This document shows, one piece after another, positions 8,860-57,845 of a stretch of DNA of 57,845 nucleotides. Below the pieces are notes generated by a model. It was not told the DNA's origin and did no database searches. It was given only the letters and a program-made list of their open reading frames with translations. This DNA comes from Phycisphaerae bacterium. Lineage in GTDB: Bacteria > Planctomycetota > Phycisphaerae > Sedimentisphaerales > Anaerobacaceae. The stretch spans positions 1 through 57,845 of the forward strand of contig JAAYBV010000057.1 of NCBI GenBank assembly GCA_012744475.1, read 5' to 3'. Both the position numbers and the translations under genes were made by a program. Within the stretch, counting starts at the first letter, position 1. Each line of letters opens with the position of its first letter.

Positions 8860-9024
8860 GTTTGGTACGAAAAAAACGGCTGCTTTTCGAGATCGGACGA
8901 CGCTAAGCCCCTGTGCGGCAACGAATAAAAAAAATCTTCATGTCACGCGCATTTTGTCGTTTGGGTGTTGCGTGTTTGTGCGCGCCGGCGGACGCGCGAT
9001 GCGTGTCAAAACACTCTGGCATTC

Positions 9025-9140
9025 GTGTGGCAGCCTCAAGCCCGAAGGGCTTGGGGATGGCGGAGAGCACCACCGCCGCTTGATACGCAAGCCGAAATCG
9101 TATCAGCCATTCCCAAGGCTGCGCCTTGAGGCTGCCACAC
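9025..9140. repeat. Cloverleaf-type dispersed repeat, copy A
   Basis: The ends GTGTGGCAGCCTCAAG and CTTGAGGCTGCCACAC are perfect 16-bp inverted repeats. Inside lie arm 1 (CAAGCCC-GAA-GGGCTTG), a middle stem (GGGATGG with CCATTCCC) whose loop carries a TGATACG/CGTATCA hairpin, and arm 3 (CAAGGC-TGC-GCCTTG). Together they can form a four-way junction. Confidence 0.85.
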
Positions 9141-9211: not shown

Positions 9212-11971
9212 ATGCCCAGGACGCTCTACATCATCGATGGTCACGCGCACATCTATGCGGCCTATTTCGCCCCCATGCGACAGCAGTTGAGCAGCCCGTC
9301 GGGCGAGCCGACGAAGGCGACGTACATCTTCACGATGGCGGTGCTCGGGCTGATCGAGAAATACCGGCCGGACATGCTCGTGGTCGCGATGGACAGCAAG
9401 GCGCCGACATTCCGCAGCGAGATGTTCGCCGAGTACAAGGCGCACCGGCCGCCCATGCCGGAGGACATGCCTGTGCAGATCGCGCGGATCGAGCAGGTGC
9501 TCGAGGCGTTGCGGATTCCGATTCTGCGGGTCGACGGGTTCGAGGCCGACGACATCATCGGCACGCTCGCCCGACGTGCGTCGGCCGACGGGATCGACGT
9601 GCGGATCTGCTCGAAGGACAAGGACCTGCTGCAACTGCTCGATGCTCGGGTCAGCGCGTTCGATATGAAGACGGGCCAGGTCACCGACGCGGACGCGATG
9701 CGGCGAGAGTGGGGAATCGGGCCCGGGCAGATCGTCGACTGCCTGGCCCTGGAAGGCGATGCCGTGGACAACGTGCCCGGCGTGCCGCTGATCGGACCCA
9801 AGACCGCGGCCGAGCTGATCCGCGCGTACGGCGACCTCGACAACCTCTACGCCCACGTCGACGAGATTCCGGGAAAGCGGGGCGAGAACCTCCGAAACTC
9901 GAAGGACCTGGCGTATCTGAGCCGCAAGCTCGTGACGCTCGACTGCGGCGTTCCGATCGAAACCGACTACGAGTCGCTGAAGCTCGATCCGCCCGACCGG
10001 GACAAGCTGGCGGCGCTGTTCAACGAGCTGGGCTTTGCCCGGCTGCTGACACAGTTCGGCTTCAAGGTGGAAAGCAATTCGGTCCCCGCGCCGGCGCCTG
10101 TGGAGTCGCACGCTGTGGCGCCGACGCCGACTGCTGCGGCGGGTGAGCCGGCATCGGCCCGGACCACGCCACACGAGTACACGCTGATCGATACGCCCGA
10201 AGCGTTCGAGCGATTTGCGAGCGAGCTGAAGAAACAGACGCTCTTTGCGGTCGACACCGAGACGACGTCGGTCGATCCGATGCGGGCGGACCTGGTGGGG
10301 CTGTCGTTCTGCTGGGAGCCGCACCGCGCGTTCTATCTGCCCGTGCGGGGGCCGCTGGGAGCGACCTGCCTGGACCTGGCGACGGTCCGCCGGACGGTCG
10401 CGCCGATCCTGGCGGACGAGGGCGTGCGCAAGGTCGGGCAGAACATCAAGTACGACTGGCTCGTTCTGCACAACGCGGGCATGCCCGTTCGGGGCGTCGA
10501 TTTCGACACGATGGTCGCGTCGTATTGTCTCGATCCGGGCCGCAGCAGCCATTCGATGGATAACATGGCTCGCGATTATCTGCATTACGAGTGCGTGCCC
10601 ATCGTCGCGCTGATCGGCAAGGGGAAGAACCAGCTCACGTTCGATATGGTCGACACCGTGGCGGCGTGCGAGTATGCCGCCGAGGACGCCGACGTCACGT
10701 GGCGGCTGTATCTGTACCTCCAGGAGCGGCTGGCGGCCGAGCCCGGCCTGGCGAAGCTGTTCGCGGACGTGGAGATGCCGCTGGTGCCTGTGCTGGCGCA
10801 GATGGAGCTGAACGGCGTCTCGCTGGACACGAGCCTGCTGCGGACGATGTCGGTCGAGCTGAGCGAGGCGCTGGAGTTCCTCAGCGAGCGGATCTACAAA
10901 GAGGCGGGGGGCGTCTTCAACATCGACTCGCCCAAGCAGCTCGGCGAGGTGCTGTTCGACCGGCTGGGGCTGGCGGCCGGGCGCGTCGGCAAGACCGGCC
11001 GCAGCACCGACGCCAGCGTGCTGGAGGAGCTGGCCGACGAGCACCCGATCGCGGCCCTGGTCCTGGAGCATCGCACGCTGAGCAAGCTCAAGAACACCTA
11101 CACCGACAAGCTGGCGGCCATGATCAACCCGCGCACCGGCCGGCTGCACGCATCGTTCAACCAGACCGTCACGGCCACCGGGCGGCTGTCATCGAGCGAC
11201 CCGAACCTCCAGAACATCCCGATCCGTACCGAACTCGGGCGCAAGATCCGCGCGGCCTTCGTCCCGCAGAGCCCGACGGACTGCATCCTCAGCGCCGACT
11301 ACAGCCAGATCGAGCTGCGTCTGCTGGCGGAATTCTCGCGCGACGAGGCGCTGCGCGCCGCGTTTGCGGCCGACCAGGACATCCATCGCTTCGTCGCCTC
11401 GCAGGTCTACGGCGTGCCGCTGGAGGCGGTCACCAGCGAGATGCGGTCGCGGAGCAAGGCGGTCAGCTTCGGCCTCATCTACGGCCAGGGGGCGTTCGGG
11501 CTGTCGCGCGTCACGGGCATGAGCGCCGCCGACGCCAGGCAATTCATCGAAGACTACTTCGCGCGGTACGGCTCGGTCCGCGCGTTCCTCGATTCGTGCG
11601 TGGAGAAGGCCCGGCGGACGGGGTACGCCGAAACGATTCTCGGACGTCGCCGCCGGATCCTCGACATCAAGAGCCGCAACGGAGGCCGCCGCGCGCAGGC
11701 CGAGCGTCTGGCGGTCAACACCGTGATCCAGGGCTCGGCCGCCGACCTGATCAAGGTCGCGATGCTGGCGATCCAGAGGCAGATCGACACGGAGCGTTTG
11801 CCGGTCCGCATGGTGCTTCAGGTCCACGACGAGCTCGTGTTCGAGCTTCCGTCGGCCGAGGCCCAGACGCACGCCGCGTGGATTTCCAGAGCGATGACCA
11901 CCGCCATCCCGCTCGATGTCCCACTGAAGGTGGACGTTGCGTACGGCCCCTCCTGGCTCAGTGACAAATAA
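9212..11971 (+). CDS. polA: DNA polymerase I
   Basis: PolA fills gaps and removes primers in replication and excision repair. The 919-residue protein has three full domains. A 5'-3' flap nuclease spans about 1-290 (YIIDGHAHIYAAYFAP; EADDIIGTLA). A 3'-5' proofreading exonuclease spans about 330-520, with all three exo motifs (FAVDTET near 344, NIKYDW, YAAEDADVTW). The polymerase domain carries motif A DYSQIELR near 696, motif B RSKAVSFGLIYG near 746 and motif C QVHDELVFE near 869. The frame is open further upstream (to 8732), but that part crosses a repeat; ATG 9212 matches the family N-terminus. The promoter at 9176-9204 abuts the start codon. The length is normal and no residue appears missing. 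Confidence 0.97.
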   Translation: MPRTLYIIDGHAHIYAAYFAPMRQQLSSPSGEPTKATYIFTMAVLGLIEKYRPDMLVVAMDSKAPTFRSEMFAEYKAHRPPMPEDMPVQIARIEQVLEALRIPILRVDGFEADDIIGTLARRASADGIDVRICSKDKDLLQLLDARVSAFDMKTGQVTDADAMRREWGIGPGQIVDCLALEGDAVDNVPGVPLIGPKTAAELIRAYGDLDNLYAHVDEIPGKRGENLRNSKDLAYLSRKLVTLDCGVPIETDYESLKLDPPDRDKLAALFNELGFARLLTQFGFKVESNSVPAPAPVESHAVAPTPTAAAGEPASARTTPHEYTLIDTPEAFERFASELKKQTLFAVDTETTSVDPMRADLVGLSFCWEPHRAFYLPVRGPLGATCLDLATVRRTVAPILADEGVRKVGQNIKYDWLVLHNAGMPVRGVDFDTMVASYCLDPGRSSHSMDNMARDYLHYECVPIVALIGKGKNQLTFDMVDTVAACEYAAEDADVTWRLYLYLQERLAAEPGLAKLFADVEMPLVPVLAQMELNGVSLDTSLLRTMSVELSEALEFLSERIYKEAGGVFNIDSPKQLGEVLFDRLGLAAGRVGKTGRSTDASVLEELADEHPIAALVLEHRTLSKLKNTYTDKLAAMINPRTGRLHASFNQTVTATGRLSSSDPNLQNIPIRTELGRKIRAAFVPQSPTDCILSADYSQIELRLLAEFSRDEALRAAFAADQDIHRFVASQVYGVPLEAVTSEMRSRSKAVSFGLIYGQGAFGLSRVTGMSAADARQFIEDYFARYGSVRAFLDSCVEKARRTGYAETILGRRRRILDIKSRNGGRRAQAERLAVNTVIQGSAADLIKVAMLAIQRQIDTERLPVRMVLQVHDELVFELPSAEAQTHAAWISRAMTTAIPLDVPLKVDVAYGPSWLSDK

Positions 11972-12442
11972 CCAGACTCCGTTTCCTCCCATCGTCCGTA
12001 GCGGTCCCGCCCGATCCGACTCCGTCTCAACAGCAATTTCGTGTGTGGGAAAACATCCTGGCATGTGGGTGGCAGCCTCAGAGCGTAGTGCAACGGAGCT
12101 TTGGGGATGGTCCGCCTGTGGCGGATGAGTGGCACATCCACAGGCAAAGGCGTCTGCGATGCGATCCATCCCCAAGTCCTGCGGACTTGAGGCTGCCACC
12201 CCTGGTTCTTTGCGCCCTCAAGGGAGTGCTGGCCTGAAATCTTGACAGACACACAATTTTGCTTGACGGGCTTGATTCCCGCGCTGTGGCCGATAGGATA
12301 GCGTCGGTCGAGATTCGTGCGAGCGCTCCGACGCGGCGGGAGACGGCTTCTGACTGCGAGCGGAATCGGAGCTTGTGCGGATGCAATATGTCACGCCACG
12401 ACGAGACCGGTGGCGGGCAGTCAGTGAGAGGCAGACTGACAC
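11972..12442. other. Intergenic region after polA
   Basis: It contains cloverleaf repeat copy B (12067-12201) with its left flank GAAAACATCCTGGCAT (12048-12063), and a weak promoter-like pair TTGATT (12272-12277) / TAGGAT (12294-12299). No terminator with a T-run is seen after polA. Confidence 0.5.
12067..12201. repeat. Cloverleaf-type dispersed repeat, copy B
   Basis: The ends GGGTGGCAGCCTCA and TGAGGCTGCCACCC are 14-bp inverted repeats. Arm 3 is CAAGTCC-TGC-GGACTTG, the middle stem is GGGGATGG with CCATCCCC, and a CCTGTG/CACAGG hairpin sits in the central loop. Arm 1 is degenerate. Confidence 0.8.
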
Positions 12443-12657: not shown

Positions 12658-13179
12658 TCACAAGTCGTCTCGACGCGAAGCCGTCTTGGGAAAGGCTCGC
12701 CCATATGCCTCGTCGGGGGGCAGGTCGGGGCGGGTGGCGGCCTGGTTGGCGAGGGTGTCGCAGGTTTCGTTTTCGGGGTGTCCGGCGTGGCCTTTGACCC
12801 ACTCGAAGCGGACCTCATGGCCCCGGCAGGCCTCCAGCAGCCGCTCCCACAGGTCTATGTTGACCGCCATATCCTTCTTGTTCCGTCGCCAGCCGTTGGC
12901 CTTCCAGCGCGTCACCCAGCCGAGGGTCATCGCGTCGACGAGATACTTCGAATCGCTGTAGAGCGTGACGCGGCAGGGGCCCTTCAGAGCTTCGAGGCCG
13001 GCGATGGCGGCCATGATCTCCATGCGGTTGTTTGTGGTCCGGCGAAAGCCCGCGGACAGACGCTTCTCGTGCGGCCCATAACGCAGCACCACGCCATAGC
13101 CGCCCGGGCCGGGGTTGCCCAGGCACCCGCCGTCCGTGTAGATCGTCACCTTCTTGCGATCGTTCATAGGGTTTGCCAT
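12658..13179 (-). CDS. rnhA: Ribonuclease HI
   Basis: RNase HI cleaves the RNA strand of RNA-DNA hybrids (R-loops, primers). The 173-residue protein shows the family motifs with all catalytic acids: [16 protein letters not shown] (Asp), NRMEIMAAI (Glu), [11 protein letters not shown] (Asp) and [15 protein letters not shown] (His and Asp). The basic handle [16 protein letters not shown] matches the E. coli-type enzyme. The start is ATG 13179 or, 12 bases later, ATG 13167; neither has a good Shine-Dalgarno sequence. The frame extends upstream to 13344, but that part overlaps a dispersed repeat and is not coding. The C-terminal tail after the last motif is about 25 residues longer than in E. coli. 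Confidence 0.95.
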
Positions 13180-13224: not shown

Positions 13225-13313
13225 GTGTGGCAGCGGCAAGCAAAGCTTGCCGATGGCTCGGACCTTCAGAACGCCTATCGCCATCGGCAACCTGAAGGTT
13301 GCCGCTGCCACCC
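13225..13313. repeat. Cloverleaf-type dispersed repeat, copy D (GGCAAG subtype)
   Basis: The outer stem is GTGTGGCAGC with GCTGCCACCC. Arm 1 is GGCAAGC-AAA-GCTTGCC, the middle stem GATGG/CCATC, and arm 3 GGCAACC-TGAA-GGTTGCC. It sits directly upstream of rnhA. Confidence 0.85.
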
Positions 13314-13352: not shown

Positions 13353-13426
13353 GTGTGGCAGCCTTCTGGCATCTGCGGTGCTGCTGAGGCCACCATTTTC
13401 AAGGCTACGCCTTGAGGCTGCCACCC
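13353..13426. repeat. Cloverleaf-type dispersed repeat, copy C (short)
   Basis: A shortened copy: GTGTGGCAGCC and GGCTGCCACCC form the outer stem and CAAGGC-TAC-GCCTTG forms arm 3. Arm 1 is degraded. Its left flank (CGTCAATTCCGTTCTCT) resembles that of copy D. Confidence 0.75.
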
Positions 13427-13445: not shown

Positions 13446-15665
13446 CTACGGCGCAGCCGGTGACATCGGATGGCCGATCTGGATGTCGTCGATGTAGATC
13501 AGGCCCGCGCCGCCGGCGGCGGGACTGGTCCGACTCCCCAAACCGATATAGAGCATCGCGACGCTGTCGAGATCGACACCCGCGAGTTCGCTGAACGCGA
13601 TGCGCCATTCCTGCCACTGCGTGACTGTCGCGGCATCGGGATCGGGATGCATGACAACCGCGACGTGCCCGGCGTTGTCCTCGACGGCCGCATACAGCGG
13701 CGCGGGCTCGTTGCCCGGCGTGGTGGGCGTGGTCGCGGCCCGGCCACGGAAGTACACGACGAGCGTGTCGGCGCCGCCGGCGGTCCAGTCCTGGCCGCCC
13801 AGGTCGCGCTGGGACTCGGAGTAATACGGCGGCTGGGCGTTGTTGTACTCCAGGGGCATGGCCTGCTTGCCGGCGTGGACGATGGACAGCTCGGCGAACG
13901 GGGCTTCGATATAGCCGACGGTCGAGCCGGTGTCGTTGGTCCATCCGTCGATCCAGGTCTGGAAGATCGTCTGGCCGGCGTCGATGTCGTCGGTGTAGCT
14001 CTCGAAATCATCGACGGTGAGGTACTCCTTCGTGGAGAAGCTCCAGACGGGTCCCTCCCATGCGGCGGGATCATCGGCCTCGTTGGCCTCGTCCACCCTC
14101 CAGTAGTAGACCGTTCCGAGGTCCAGCCCGCCGATCGCGTAGCGGCTCTCGTCGACCGTATCGCGCAGAGCGGTTCCGTCCGCGACCGCCTGACGGTCGG
14201 AGCTGACGTAGACCGAGTGCGAAACCGCGTCCCGGCCGCCGCGCCAGTCGAGAGTGACCTCGAGATCGACGTCCGCCTGCCCATCGGCCGGCAGCGGATC
14301 GCGCGCGCTGGCTGGTTTGTGGTAGAAGCGGACCTCGCTGAGGCCGAACTGGCCCAGCGCGCTGTAGCCGGTGTCTGCGGTAAGGCGAACGTAGCGGGCC
14401 GCCACGTCGCCAAAGTCGATCGTGGTGTTGTGGGCGTAGTCGGCTCGCGCTGTGCCGCGACCGAACTGGAACTGGCCCAGACTGGTCCAACTCGCGCCGT
14501 CGGCGGAGTACTCCACGGTGACGTCCTTGAGGCCGAAGCCGAGCACCAGCTCGAACTGGACGTTGTAGTTCCAGACCCACATCTCCTGGAGCCTGTAGAG
14601 GCCGTCGAATTCGTACTGAATCCAGGTGGGCTGCGCGGCGCCGGGGGCGGACAGCCACATGTCGCCTGCGGCGATCGAATGCTGGTCGGCGGCGTTCAGG
14701 CCCGATCCGTTGGCGGTGTTCTCCGGGCCGGCGACCCCGTCGAAGCTGGAGGCGGTGGCGATGACGTTGGCGATTGGATAGACGAACGGCTCGGTGGTGA
14801 AGTTCCAGACGCTGCCCGGGTAGATCGTGCCGTCCGGCGGGGCGTTGACCTCGTCGATACGCCAGTAGTAGGTCTGGCCGAACTCAAGATTGCCGGGCGG
14901 GTCGAACGTCGTCGCGTCCTGGCCCTGAGTGACGAGGACGCCCAGCGGATTGCCGCGGGCGGCGTCGTTGACGTCGTTGGACACGGTCCCGAGATAGACG
15001 TCGTGCGTCGCGGCGTACGTCCCGGCGGTCCAGCTCAGAATCGTGTCGACCGGCACATCGGTCTGCATGTGCGCCGGCTGCGGCTCGCGGGCCGCGACGG
15101 GGACCGTGATCTCCGGGGCCGGTTCGGTGTCCATCCAGACCCGGTCGATGTTCAGATCGATGTCGCTCTGGTTCAGGTTGAAGTAGAAGTCGATGTCGTC
15201 GTTGAAGTTCCCGGTGCCGCCCACCGTCGCTCCGGTGTGCGCGTACTCGAAGCTGAAGGTCTGCACCTCGGTCGTCAACTGGATGTCGAGGGCGCGCCAG
15301 AACTGGGCCCAGTTGTGGGTCGTTCGACCCAGCAGCATCACCGAAATGCTCCTCGGCGCATCGGCACGGGCCATGAAGCTGATGTAATACGTCTGGCCCT
15401 GCACCAGCTCGAGATACGACTGGATCAGTTGCAGAGAGCCGGCGGCGCCGTCGGGAATGACGACGCGCAGCGACATGTCGCCGGACATGGTCGTGTCCGG
15501 CACCGGTTCGACGCGTTCGAAGTCCGTGGTCTCCCAGAGCCACCAGTTGTCGCCCGCAAGGGGCTCATCGAACTCCCAGTTGCGAATCTGATTGGCCCCC
15601 TGGGCCGCCGCGCCCATGCCCACGATCAGACCAAAGGCAACCAACGCTACACCCACTCTACACAT
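13446..15665 (-). CDS. Secreted multidomain carbohydrate-binding protein (CBM-like, Fn3-like, F5/8 type C)
   Basis: The 739-residue protein starts with a signal peptide (VALVAFGLIVGMGAAAQGA). An N-terminal beta-sandwich resembling CBM4/9/LamG modules follows (NQIRNWEFDEPLAGDNWWLWE, about 25-175). There are then Fn3-like repeats marked by AREPQPAHMQTDVPVDTILSW and YYWRIDEVNAP (about 180-290), and a discoidin-type domain (about 300-450) containing ARYVRLTADTGYSALGQFGLSEVRF. A second YYWRVDEAN module and a C-terminal jelly-roll segment complete it. No glycosidase catalytic motif is obvious, so it is probably a glycan-binding or cell-surface protein. The start codon is firm: AGGAGG stands seven bases upstream. 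Confidence 0.75.
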   Translation of the reverse strand: MCRVGVALVAFGLIVGMGAAAQGANQIRNWEFDEPLAGDNWWLWETTDFERVEPVPDTTMSGDMSLRVVIPDGAAGSLQLIQSYLELVQGQTYYISFMARADAPRSISVMLLGRTTHNWAQFWRALDIQLTTEVQTFSFEYAHTGATVGGTGNFNDDIDFYFNLNQSDIDLNIDRVWMDTEPAPEITVPVAAREPQPAHMQTDVPVDTILSWTAGTYAATHDVYLGTVSNDVNDAARGNPLGVLVTQGQDATTFDPPGNLEFGQTYYWRIDEVNAPPDGTIYPGSVWNFTTEPFVYPIANVIATASSFDGVAGPENTANGSGLNAADQHSIAAGDMWLSAPGAAQPTWIQYEFDGLYRLQEMWVWNYNVQFELVLGFGLKDVTVEYSADGASWTSLGQFQFGRGTARADYAHNTTIDFGDVAARYVRLTADTGYSALGQFGLSEVRFYHKPASARDPLPADGQADVDLEVTLDWRGGRDAVSHSVYVSSDRQAVADGTALRDTVDESRYAIGGLDLGTVYYWRVDEANEADDPAAWEGPVWSFSTKEYLTVDDFESYTDDIDAGQTIFQTWIDGWTNDTGSTVGYIEAPFAELSIVHAGKQAMPLEYNNAQPPYYSESQRDLGGQDWTAGGADTLVVYFRGRAATTPTTPGNEPAPLYAAVEDNAGHVAVVMHPDPDAATVTQWQEWRIAFSELAGVDLDSVAMLYIGLGSRTSPAAGGAGLIYIDDIQIGHPMSPAAP

Positions 15666-16079
15666 GGTGATCCTCCTTCAGAAAAGACCGGGATGATGTC
15701 AGAGCCGGCCGCGAGAGAAAAGCCGCCCGTTCCGCGCGATTCACGTCTCTTGCACGATCCATTGTCTCAGACCCTCCGGTCGCGAATGGAAATGCCGGAC
15801 CGCACGCCCACAACACCATCGATTATAGCCCCTTCCGCCCTCCCGGCCAAGAGGATTCTCCCTGACGCGATAAGCTGTCTCTTGGCGGGGGGAGCGAAGC
15901 TGTTTGTAGTGTGCCTTTGAGGGCATACTCGTCCCGGCGAAGGTAACGCCTGACGGCGTCACTACGAACCAGACCCTGACCGCAAGCCAAAATGAGTACT
16001 GGCGTCGATTCTCCCTCCGTGTGCCACGCCGGCGTCTGTGTGGATTCCACGGCAAGCCCCGTCGGGGTGTGGAGAGTCT

Positions 16080-16195
16080 GTGTGGCAGCCTCAAGGCGCA
16101 GCCTTGGGGATGGTTCTTCGCCTTTGCAACCTTCCAGCATCCGCGAGCTGTCAGGGCCTCCATCCCCAAACGCGGCGCGTTTGAGGCTGCCACAC
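16080..16195. repeat. Cloverleaf-type dispersed repeat, copy E
   Basis: 116 bp, the same length as copy A. The ends GTGTGGCAGCCTCAAG and TTTGAGGCTGCCACAC pair; arm 1 is CCTCAAGGC-GCA-GCCTTGGGG; the middle stem is GATGG/CCATC; arm 3 is CCCCAAACGC-GGC-GCGTTTGAGG. Confidence 0.85.
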
Positions 16196-16210
16196 CGCTT
16201 CGCGTGGGCC

Positions 16211-16234
16211 GTAGGGGCGAGGCATGCCTCGCCC
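16211..16234. repeat. Palindromic repeat GTAGGGGCGAGG
   Basis: GGGGCGAGGCATGCCTCGCC-type palindrome. A close relative lies inside the kinase gene at 48638-48655. Confidence 0.65.
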
Positions 16235-16316
16235 TGCCATTTCTGCCGTGGGTTAGGGGGGAGTTGCGGCGCGCCCATGAACCTCATATGGGCGATGATT
16301 CACGCCTGGATTTGCG

Positions 16317-16345
16317 TTGCGGCCCGGCGCCGGCGCTGTCACAAT
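16317..16345 (+). promoter_or_regulatory. Sigma70-like promoter
   Basis: TTGCGG (16317-16322), a 17-bp spacer and CACAAT (16340-16345), giving a leader of about 60 bases for the gene at 16413. Confidence 0.4.
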
Positions 16346-16412
16346 GGGATCTATCGGAACTCGGGGGGCGTGCTGAGAGAGACAAAGGCCGGATGTGCAA
16401 AAGGGAGATCGT

Positions 16413-17102
16413 ATGAGAGACCCGGATTCAGAGGGCGAGCCGATGGAGGAATCGGCACAGGGCCGCGGAGTGTGGCAGCGTGTGCCGCGGTCATTGAGGT
16501 TAGGGGTGGCAGTGGTAGCGGTGGCGGTCGTTGGGGTGGGGGTGACGCTGGTGGCGGGGTATCCTTTCGGCATGTGGTCCTACATGCTGACGGAGTTCGC
16601 CTTGTTGTGCCTGGCGATTGGTTCGGTGGTGGGGCTGATTCGCGGGCAGACGCCCATATGGCATTCACTTGGAACGTGCGTGGTGGCGGTCGGTCTGCTT
16701 TACGTGGTGACGCCGTTTGGCCCGGCCAATCTCATGGGGCTTACGAATCTTCGCACGCGGGCGCGCGTGGCGATGACGGGCGGGCAAGACCAGCTACAGG
16801 CGTGGGCGGCGGAGGTTCTGGCGAAACCGCGCGACCCGATGGAGCAGGACGGCTTAGGCTGGTACATGCCCAGCGAGGAGTGGTCCGAGCAGGTCCGACG
16901 GCTCAGGCCAAAGGCTCTCCTCGTTCGCATCGATCCGCTTCTGGAAGGGCGGCGCAACGCGGTGCGTTTGGGCTATGGTGGAGGCCCTTTCCATTGGTAC
17001 ATCGTGGTGGGCCCGCCGGGTTCGGTGCCCCAGCGGGATTCAGTTGATGAGCTATGGTATCGGTGGGACGATGGGGTTTACGGCTGGTTCCCGGAGAACT
17101 GA
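16413..17102 (+). CDS. Uncharacterised membrane protein
   Basis: This 229-residue protein is not recognised. A hydrophilic N-terminus of about 28 residues is followed by three predicted membrane helices: SLRLGVAVVAVAVVGVGVTLV (about 28-48), MLTEFALLCLAIGSVVGLI (about 57-75) and LGTCVVAVGLLYVVTPF (about 86-102). A soluble C-terminal domain of about 120 residues contains LVRIDPLLEGRRNAVRLGYGGGPFHWYIVVGP. ATG 16413 is chosen because AGGGAG lies about five bases upstream; an earlier in-frame ATG at 16395 lacks this. A small membrane protein follows at 17231. Confidence 0.7.
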   Translation: MRDPDSEGEPMEESAQGRGVWQRVPRSLRLGVAVVAVAVVGVGVTLVAGYPFGMWSYMLTEFALLCLAIGSVVGLIRGQTPIWHSLGTCVVAVGLLYVVTPFGPANLMGLTNLRTRARVAMTGGQDQLQAWAAEVLAKPRDPMEQDGLGWYMPSEEWSEQVRRLRPKALLVRIDPLLEGRRNAVRLGYGGGPFHWYIVVGPPGSVPQRDSVDELWYRWDDGVYGWFPEN

Positions 17103-35379: not shown

Positions 35380-35407
35380 GTAGGGGCGAATCATGATTCG
35401 CCCGTAC
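35380..35407. repeat. Palindromic repeat GTAGGGGCGAAT
   Basis: The core GGGCGAATCATGATTCGCCC is a 20-bp perfect palindrome flanked by GTAG and GTAC-like ends. The copy within the kinase gene at 48594-48621 differs only in the central four bases. Confidence 0.75.
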
Positions 35408-48517: not shown

Positions 48518-50030
48518 GCGAGGACGGATTGACGACGCGGCGTTCGAGGCGAGTCTTATCGCCGGCGACACGAAGATCGTCGAGCCGCAGACAGTAGGGG
48601 CGAATGATCATTCGCCCGTACAAACGCCGGCCGCGGGGGCGAGGCGCGCCTCGCCGGTCCGTCAGCCGCCCTGGGTGGGCAAGGTGCTGGGCCATTTCAA
48701 GCTCTTGCGCTTGATCGGCGAAGGCAAGATGGGACGGGTCATCCAGGCCCGCGACATCAACCTTCAGCGCATCGTGGCGCTCAAGGTGCTGTGCAAACGC
48801 CTGCCGGGAATCGACGCCGCCCAGCGGGTCGATCAGTTCTTCCGCGAGGCGCGCGCCGCCGCTCAGATCGATCATCCCAACGTGGTGCACATCTATGAGA
48901 TCAACCAGCACGACGGCTGGTGGTACATCGCGATGGAGATGCTCGAGGGCGGCAATCTCGGGCAGGCGATCAAGGCGGCCGGCCCGCTGCCGGCGCACCG
49001 GGCCTGCGCGTTCATCGCCGACGCCGCTTCGGCGCTGGCGGCGGCACATGAGATCGGCATCCTCCATCGGGACATCAAGCCGGCCAACCTGATGCTCACG
49101 CGCCAGGGACGGTGCAAAGTCACCGACTTCGGACTGGTGCACATCGACGATCCCAACGATCCGTTCCAGTTCACGCACAAGGCGGTGGGCTCGCCGCTGT
49201 TTATGGCGCCCGAGATGATCCTTCGCCGGGAGCAGACACCGGCCGTCGACGTCTACAGTCTGGGCACGACGCTGTTCTGTGCGCTGACCGGCCGGGCGCC
49301 CTACACGGGAAAGAGCCTCGAAGAAGTCCTTCAGCAGCACGTCAAGGCGCCGCTCCCGGACCTGCGGACGTACTTGCCGAACTGTTCGCAGACCCTGGCG
49401 ACGCTGGTGTCGCGGATGCTGGCCAAGTCCCCGAGCGAGCGGCCGTCGGCGCCAGAGGTGACCTCGGCGCTGCGGGCCGAAGCGATTGCCGGCGCGGTCG
49501 TGGACTCGGGAACGCTGGGCTCGGGGACATCCAGTCTGCTGCGTGAGCTGATGGGATCGGGAGTAACCGACTCGACGGTGGGCACACAGATCGTCGCGGC
49601 GGCGGAACGCTGGACGCGGGCCAGGCAAGCCATCCGAAGGCGCCGCCTCCTGATCGGCGCTGCCATCGTGGCCGTGGCAGCAACGCTGGTCCTGTTGGGT
49701 TTGTACGGGCCGTTCGGAAGACCGGGTCGCCGCACCGCTCCATCGCCGGCAGGTCTGGCGAAGTATTTCCCCGATGCGCCGGAAAGCCTGGGTGTGCTGC
49801 CGTCCGGCGTGGTTCCTGAGCCGGCCCGGCTGGATCGCAGCGATCCGCCGGCCTTCAGTTGGGTCCGTCAGATCGACCCCGGCGATGCCCGGTTCGTAGC
49901 CAGCCGCAGAGGCCGGCACTTCTACTCGATTGGCGCGCCCGAGGCGATCCTGATCCGCGCACGCGATCTCATCGGCTACCCGACTGCCGAGGCCGCCATC
50001 GCCGACGGCAAGATTCCGGCCGCACAATAG
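48501..50030 (+). CDS. Membrane-anchored Ser/Thr protein kinase (PknB-like)
   Basis: The 509-residue protein has a Hanks-type kinase domain, about 65-335: glycine loop LIGEGKMGRV (73-80), ATP-binding Lys95 in VALKVL, HRDIKPANL near 189-197 with the catalytic Asp, DFGL, and VGSPLFMAPEM. A membrane helix follows (LLIGAAIVAVAATLVLLGLYG, about 383-403) and then an extracytoplasmic tail of about 100 residues ending in PTAEAAIADGKIPAAQ. The N-terminal 60 residues are unusual. DNA at 48594-48621 and 48638-48655 consists of two dispersed palindromic repeats translated in frame, giving VGANDHSPVQ and GARRASP. It is coupled to the gene at 47309 and converges with the FG-GAP gene. Confidence 0.88.
   Translation: MSARDERGRIDDAAFEASLIAGDTKIVEPQTVGANDHSPVQTPAAGARRASPVRQPPWVGKVLGHFKLLRLIGEGKMGRVIQARDINLQRIVALKVLCKRLPGIDAAQRVDQFFREARAAAQIDHPNVVHIYEINQHDGWWYIAMEMLEGGNLGQAIKAAGPLPAHRACAFIADAASALAAAHEIGILHRDIKPANLMLTRQGRCKVTDFGLVHIDDPNDPFQFTHKAVGSPLFMAPEMILRREQTPAVDVYSLGTTLFCALTGRAPYTGKSLEEVLQQHVKAPLPDLRTYLPNCSQTLATLVSRMLAKSPSERPSAPEVTSALRAEAIAGAVVDSGTLGSGTSSLLRELMGSGVTDSTVGTQIVAAAERWTRARQAIRRRRLLIGAAIVAVAATLVLLGLYGPFGRPGRRTAPSPAGLAKYFPDAPESLGVLPSGVVPEPARLDRSDPPAFSWVRQIDPGDARFVASRRGRHFYSIGAPEAILIRARDLIGYPTAEAAIADGKIPAAQ
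48594..48621. repeat. GTAGGGGCGAAT palindrome inside the kinase gene
   Basis: The core GGGCGAATGATCATTCGCCC is a perfect 20-bp palindrome nearly identical to the intergenic copy at 35380-35407. It is translated as part of the kinase N-terminal linker. Confidence 0.75.
48638..48655. repeat. GGCGAGGCGCGCCTCGCC palindrome inside the kinase gene
   Basis: A perfect 18-bp palindrome related to the intergenic copy at 16211-16234, also translated in frame, 16 bases after the preceding palindrome. Confidence 0.7.
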
Positions 50031-57630: not shown

Positions 57631-57718
57631 GGCTCCAAATCTGACGCCAAGCCTGATTCTCCGGCTCGCGATGGCGTCTCGCCCTCCGCCCTGTGTCTGT
57701 GAAAATATCCTGGCAGCC

Positions 57719-57813
57719 GTGTGGCAGCGGCAAGCGCAGGCTTGCCGATGGTGATACGCATGCCGGCGAAGCCATCGGCAAACTCCGCCCTGCTCCGTTT
57801 GCCGCTGCCACAC
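57719..57813. repeat. Cloverleaf-type dispersed repeat, copy F (GGCAAG subtype)
   Basis: The ends GTGTGGCAGCGGCAA and TTGCCGCTGCCACAC are perfect 15-bp inverted repeats. Arm 1 is GGCAAGC-GCAG-GCTTGCC (sharing bases), the middle stem is GATGG/CCATC, and arm 3 is GGCAAAC/GTTTGCC with a 13-base loop. Confidence 0.85.
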
Positions 57814-57845
57814 ATGGCGCTCCGTGGTGGAAAACGGGCCTTGCC

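Follow-up and report, generated by a model that had tools for sequence, protein, structure and literature searches.

The recently spread copies of the repeat family described here are, with a probability of about 0.8, MITEs with a REPIN core that are moved by a DDE-type transposase acting in trans. MITEs of DDE-type insertion sequences are short and non-coding, with terminal inverted repeats and target duplications of fixed length. The element found here shares these properties and differs in having as its core a REPIN that corresponds to a RAYT.

The original prediction described a six-copy repeat in one contig (C33; 57,845 nucleotides, the window) of a genome of 5,747,819 bases in 118 contigs. 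The family is real, with GTGGCAGC on the left and GCTGCCAC on the right at all six places (Table 1). It is also abundant, as expected of a REP sequence: the genome search proposed for further copies gave 339 matches (176 + 163) to the half-unit pattern GTGGCAGC N10-40 GATGG and 13 (6 + 7) to the control, the same pattern read backwards, so that the proposed refutation by a lack of further copies failed. Five of the six window copies are complete doublets with the anatomy that had been ascribed to every copy; the exception is copy 4, from which the left hairpin and GATGG are gone. The central stem, given as GATGG/CCATC throughout, is GATGG/CCATT in copy 1. The boundaries first drawn were too narrow: copy 2 spans 12041-12252, copy 6 begins at 57693, an end of copy 5 lies at 16032, and a decayed end of copy 1 lies at 8999. 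All six copies were also said to be intergenic. They do lie outside the neighboring genes with Pfam support, an extragenic share seen for the window alone, while four other neighboring or overlapping ORFs, one of which (15992-17047) covers copy 5, had no Pfam match; an intergenic location of all six is therefore likely rather than proven.

Table 1. Copies of the repeat family in the window, their parts and neighboring genes
Feature	Position	Strand	Details
polA	about 9212-11971		Pfam support
RNase H	about 12661-13167		Pfam support
F5/8-CBM protein	13446-15665	-	Pfam support
Copy 1, REP doublet, subtype A	9025-9140		spacer between REPs
Copy 1, left REP	9027-9060	+	
Copy 1, right REP	9107-9138	-	
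Copy 1, short terminal repeat	8999-9021	+	decayed, 6 mismatches
Copy 2, complete element	12041-12252		212 bp, between inverted repeats
Copy 2, left target-site copy	12033-12040		GCAATTTC; 6/8 positions equal right copy
Copy 2, short end	12041-12063		
Copy 2, left REP	12069-12110	+	55-nt spacer follows
Copy 2, right REP	12166-12199	-	
Copy 2, long end	12230-12252		
Copy 2, right target-site copy	12253-12260		ACAATTTT
Copy 3, REP doublet, subtype B	13225-13313		24-nt spacer; terminal repeats not recognized
Copy 4, degraded doublet	13353-13426		ends not recognized
Copy 4, right REP	13392-13424	-	largely intact
Copy 5, REP doublet, subtype A	16080-16195		
Copy 5, long-side terminal repeat	16032-16054	+	3 mismatches; sole end recognized
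Copy 5, left REP	16082-16113	+	
Copy 5, right REP	16160-16193	-	
Copy 6, subtype B element	57693-57845		cut by contig end; includes start of long arm
Copy 6, short end	57693-57715		
Copy 6, left REP	57721-57751	+	20-nt spacer follows
Copy 6, right REP	57772-57811	-	

What is the repeated unit? A single half-unit is a hairpin with CAGC/GATG at its foot, one G·A mismatch and an unpaired GTGG on the 5' side, which agrees with the characteristic form of REPs, a short hairpin with GT[AG]G at its base. The lower stem distinguishes two subtypes, A (CCTC/GGGG) and B (CGGC/GCCG). Among distinct units, folding is better for the GTGG strand than for the complementary strand in 52 of 55 of subtype A and 29 of 31 of subtype B. 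Upper stems of subtype A are variable yet paired (pairs 8-12, 0/500 shuffles) and subtype B covaries at one pair only (1/500 shuffles, next best 50/500), in a test whose anchors fix pairs 0-3 by construction and whose shuffles overstate the signal because the units are related. Each half is a canonical REP, and two facing REPs are a REPIN; the outer and central stems noticed originally exist because one unit is inverted.

A scoring rule applied to 1,618,325 bases (1.62 Mb) of the genome found 128 units, arranged as 35 facing pairs less than 250 bases apart, no back-to-back pairs and five same-strand neighbors, with 58 units outside facing pairs. A first scan of half of the sequence, using the bare core and a 300-base limit, had given 32 facing, three back-to-back and three same-strand pairs. 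The 35 facing pairs comprise 19 A-A, 16 B-B and no mixed doublets; the notion that subtypes never mix was nevertheless dropped on finding an A-B hybrid (L112, 9370-9447) among the pairs of the first scan, which this scoring rule misses. Spacers measure 20 nt in 11 of the 16 B pairs and 46-47 nt in 13 of the 19 A pairs. None of the 35 doublets has identical arms, compared with 0.65 expected, and we claim no avoidance.

Other repeats were seen in passing. A further family resembling REPs (GTAGGGGCGA...TCGCCC, many copies having CTAC at their opposite end) occurs in the window at 16211-16234, 35380-35403 and 48594-48617; its pattern has 157 matches and the control 1, and a second Y1 gene was not found. 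Two mini-palindromes, TCCCGATGnnCATCGGGA (11 copies in 1.62 Mb, where base composition predicts 0.0006) and TCCGCCnnnGGCGGA (10 copies, 0.5 expected), lie in several cases within REP arms or spacers (window 12111-12125; REP arms of L115 and L117). DNA of the gene for the F5/8 and carbohydrate-binding-domain protein is about 70% identical to dozens of places in this genome and its congeners.

Is the doublet itself the moving unit? The reading in which the REPIN moves and a RAYT moves it was dropped when the outward flanks proved to share arms. Among 124 such flanks of 100 nt each, an arm of some 28 nt that starts GTGTSTGTGAAAATATC.TGGCA is common to 21, and one of some 53 nt that starts GTGTCTGTGCGAATTTCGCGGCA is common to 10. 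Both arms begin GTGTSTGTG and are therefore terminal inverted repeats around the doublet. These repeats are imperfect, 23 nt long (GTGTSTGTG...GGCA), and lie outside the REPs, starting at a distance of 28 or about 50-55 nt, so that copies possessing them are part of a unit larger than a REPIN. The combined end pattern has 143 matches (74 + 69) in the genome and 1 + 1 in the control. The congeners G005, G004, G001, G002 and G003 yield 19, 6, 15, 24 and 6 matches, with 1, 4, 1, 0 and 2 in the control, and G004 and G003 are thus hardly above background.

An end stands at the expected distance from 15 of the 35 doublets (six with both ends, five with one, and four with one where the contig cuts off the other side), a test passed by 49 of 20,000 random flanks. 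For B doublets with a 20-nt spacer the proportion is 9/11. Ends were not recognized in 20 of the 35 doublets of this genome or in five of eight within chosen stretches of G005, and the MITE may therefore not account for the whole family. Doublets of this kind may be older copies with decayed ends, or REPINs that spread without the MITE. Elements with two facing ends number 29 in our collection, to which members were added non-randomly from listed end matches, mostly as facing pairs: 16 are of 172 nt, two of 171, five of 183-184 and six of 212-229. The complete element is mostly 172 bp in subtype B or 212-229 bp in subtype A. One exact 23-nt subtype A end recurs at at least 15 places among the matches listed (100 of 143), and the view of subtype A as an old orphan was abandoned on that account. 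A subtype B arm here is 78% identical to a subtype A arm of G005; the same kind of arm carries either REP subtype.

At nine distinct junctions (L115:172, L244, L277, L278, L283, L286, L287, L288 and L293) a fixed linker of 9 nt (GCCGAGCGA or a variant) connects an A element to a B element, and the pair has apparently been copied together as one larger element. A unit lies within 120 nt of 15 of the 36 termini of 18 contigs, a biased set; the element family suggests an explanation of why many assembly contigs end in these repeats.

Target-site duplications were sought in 28 elements with both flanks. Exact 8-bp flanking repeats border six of them, with 0.0 expected from mismatched flanks, and 8-bp repeats within two mismatches border 10, with 0.12 expected when flanks are paired between different elements. 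Two more of the 28 have exact 9-bp repeats, for which the control is 0.46, a value that we put down to the shared linker. Repeat lengths of 3-7 and 10-12 gave no exact case among the 28. The linker to a neighboring element abuts 12 of the 28; the 16 stand-alone elements divide into 12 with an 8- or 9-bp repeat and four with none. A subtype A element of G005 has AAGGCCTC on both sides, an exact 8-bp repeat. Duplications of fixed length are the product of DDE transposases, and 8-9 bp fits several DDE families. Y1 enzymes are not known to duplicate their targets; the accounts of them, in the parts drawn on here, describe single-strand cleavage and joining. The flanking duplications therefore point to a DDE-type MITE and not to a Y1 enzyme. 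The earlier proposal of a non-autonomous element mobilized in trans is supported for complete copies by their inverted ends and duplications; a RAYT/Y1 transposase as mobilizer, offered with it, gains no support for movement of the element, given that Y1 enzymes are not known to duplicate targets.

How would such an element move? Most likely, a DDE-type transposase supplied in trans would cut at the inverted ends, and insertion into a staggered cut would produce the 8- or 9-bp duplications. An autonomous partner with the same ends was not found in facing-end scans or at the IS256-type gene. Facing end pairs 270-4000 nt apart are absent from 1.62 Mb and, read by eye, from the matches listed (100 of 143). 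The only IS256-type gene, from the one DDE family searched, lies in two parts at the ends of C43 and C100 and was rejected as partner: its flanks share TTTCGCACATT, not the GTGTSTGTG...GGCA ends. No empty site was obtained; at polA the flanks could not be aligned.

The genome's single RAYT has REPs that match the REP core of the element. The search for a co-occurring Y1/HUH transposase gene, suggested at the outset, found a single Y1 gene (C22:1650-2213). Its product scores 101.9 bits against the REP-associated tyrosine transposase model (cut-off 80) and 26 bits against the IS200 model (cut-off 55), which places it outside IS200/IS605. In an alignment of 52 proteins, H67 and H69 are invariant and Y129, the presumed catalytic residue, is present in 90% or more. 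The structure model (pLDDT 92) has 4er8 as its best match (E 6.2e-9). Two subtype B REPs lie upstream of this single-copy gene and one downstream, with no terminal repeats seen next to them. An A element with its end occupies the start of the RAYT contig; a further A unit is found some 1.3 kb downstream of the gene.

We surveyed 68 named RAYT loci (51 with planctomycete titles) and this one. Facing-order hairpins occur at 1.91 per kb beside the RAYT gene and at 0.33 per kb 1-2.5 kb away (both strands); densities were used because pair counts are conditioned on a detector that requires pairing. Of 65 loci with enough flank, 18 have hairpins on both sides, 14 on one side and 33 on neither. Loci without hairpins make up 18/33 of those under 48% identity, 12/21 at 48-55% and 3/11 at 56% or more. 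REP type follows RAYT clade in these relatives: four changes are needed to explain the lower-stem type of 13 loci on a 33-RAYT tree, and 1/1000 shuffles is as low, with labels set by eye, close variants merged (L123, L130, L150) and loci of unique, mixed or doubtful type left out (L128, L133, L136, L138, L139, L144, L186). L124 is an exception to this pattern. RAYT genes at L036 (G004) and at L039 and L052 (G028) are decaying, and have REPs or remnants alongside; an internal TAG interrupts one, and another is divided between two frames.

The two subtypes are distributed differently among relatives. Subtype B patterns match 124 units here, 0, 0, 0, 1 and 0 in G001-G005, and one across 19 other genomes. 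Subtype A patterns match 169 units here, 19, 8, 2, 36 and 37 in G001-G005, and 81, 28, 20 and 1 in G014, G028, G012 and G008, respectively; the control in this genome is 0 for both subtypes. G005 contains no match to this RAYT, while in G004 the best match has a stop and two others are distant. Near-identical copies of both subtypes are present here, so both have probably spread lately.

Could the copies be plain REPINs moved by the resident RAYT, with the common outer arms as flanks copied along? The canonical REP anatomy, the single RAYT flanked on both sides by subtype B REPs, the tracking of RAYT clade by REP type, and the 20 of 35 doublets from which outer ends are absent all speak for this reading. 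The abundance of subtype B here and its near absence from the five congeners fits a B-flanked RAYT, but it is explained equally by a MITE burst in this lineage, and units of subtype A are likewise found on each side of the RAYT, at about 1.3-1.6 kb. Sharp copy ends at inverted repeats with 8-9 bp duplications are not predicted by the RAYT mechanism, and we consider plain REPINs improbable. As to the preferred DDE-type MITE, its REP core may travel as a passenger or may still be acted on by the RAYT. A tentative, rather unlikely extension is that two enzymes are involved: a DDE transposase would use the ends to move the element, and the REP core would be acted on, or selected, by the resident RAYT. 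It is hinted at by the one arm kind that carries either subtype and by the subtype that bloomed here (B), which is the one flanking the resident RAYT.

Two further explanations start from the fold. The four-way junction read from the window copies uses pairings that are possible, but none of the six copies has it as predicted minimum. The five complete copies have their minimum in a long hairpin, and degraded copy 4 in a smaller branched form. For the complete copies the long hairpin reaches -39.4, -40.8, -31.3, -39.5 and -36.7 kcal/mol compared with -26.7, -29.3, -20.1, -25.8 and -27.0 kcal/mol for the four-way form, which is about 10-14 kcal/mol worse in 5/5, where the four-way forms were assembled from separately folded arms and the best one is possibly somewhat better; two separate hairpins give -11 to -21 kcal/mol. 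An element recognized as a four-way junction is accordingly scarcely credible. Doublets do fold much better than their shuffles (z -5.1 to -7.3) and some copies lie 20-100 nt from gene ends, as might suit a structured RNA kept for a role in mRNA. The mobile-element ends and duplications argue against this, as does Rfam, whose only match in the window at gathering score is SSU rRNA, with none to the copies. Nor did a loose pattern find any unit at the polA loci of the five congeners (three covered in part), and we regard a structured RNA as very improbable.

How does the element compare with known systems, as described in the parts of the cited reports drawn on here? REPINs, REP heterodimers, GTGG variants and Planctomycetes REPs are already known (PMC3116915, PMC3733652, PMC6006769). 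REPINs of Pseudomonas fluorescens SBW25 likewise have an inverted REP doublet, a spacer, a long hairpin and a RAYT nearby, and their group I 16-mer GTGGGAGGGGGCTTGC also starts GTGG (PMC3116915); many copies here, in contrast, lie within an element bearing terminal repeats and target duplications. The suggestion that the repeat is more elaborate than ordinary REP/BIME units thus fails for the doublet and holds, for another reason, for the whole element. REP dimers inside longer palindromes are described in A. variabilis and H. neapolitanus (PMC3733652). The A. variabilis GTAG-15 dimer is similarly central in a longer, partly palindromic outer sequence, but its sequences differ and those parts of the report mention neither a transposase nor duplication of the target. 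TnpA-REP of E. coli (PMC8266576; 4er8) resembles the RAYT system here in its HUH/Tyr enzyme, tetranucleotide at the hairpin foot and imperfect stem; 4er8 is about 20% identical to our RAYT, which is known from its sequence and model. The element was not recognized among the papers listed on REPs, RAYTs or MITEs in Planctomycetes or Phycisphaerae, or on REP sequences with a MITE and target duplication, searches in which subscription journals were thinly covered.

Why should this matter? If two enzymes are indeed involved, the REP type of the MITE would correspond to the local RAYT, with the two REPs switching together. How REPINs spread is an open question to which RAYTs are the usual answer. 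This REPIN family carries the marks of another route in a genome that also keeps a matching RAYT. With inverted ends, target duplications and a matching RAYT in one genome, the two routes should be separable by comparison of close strains.
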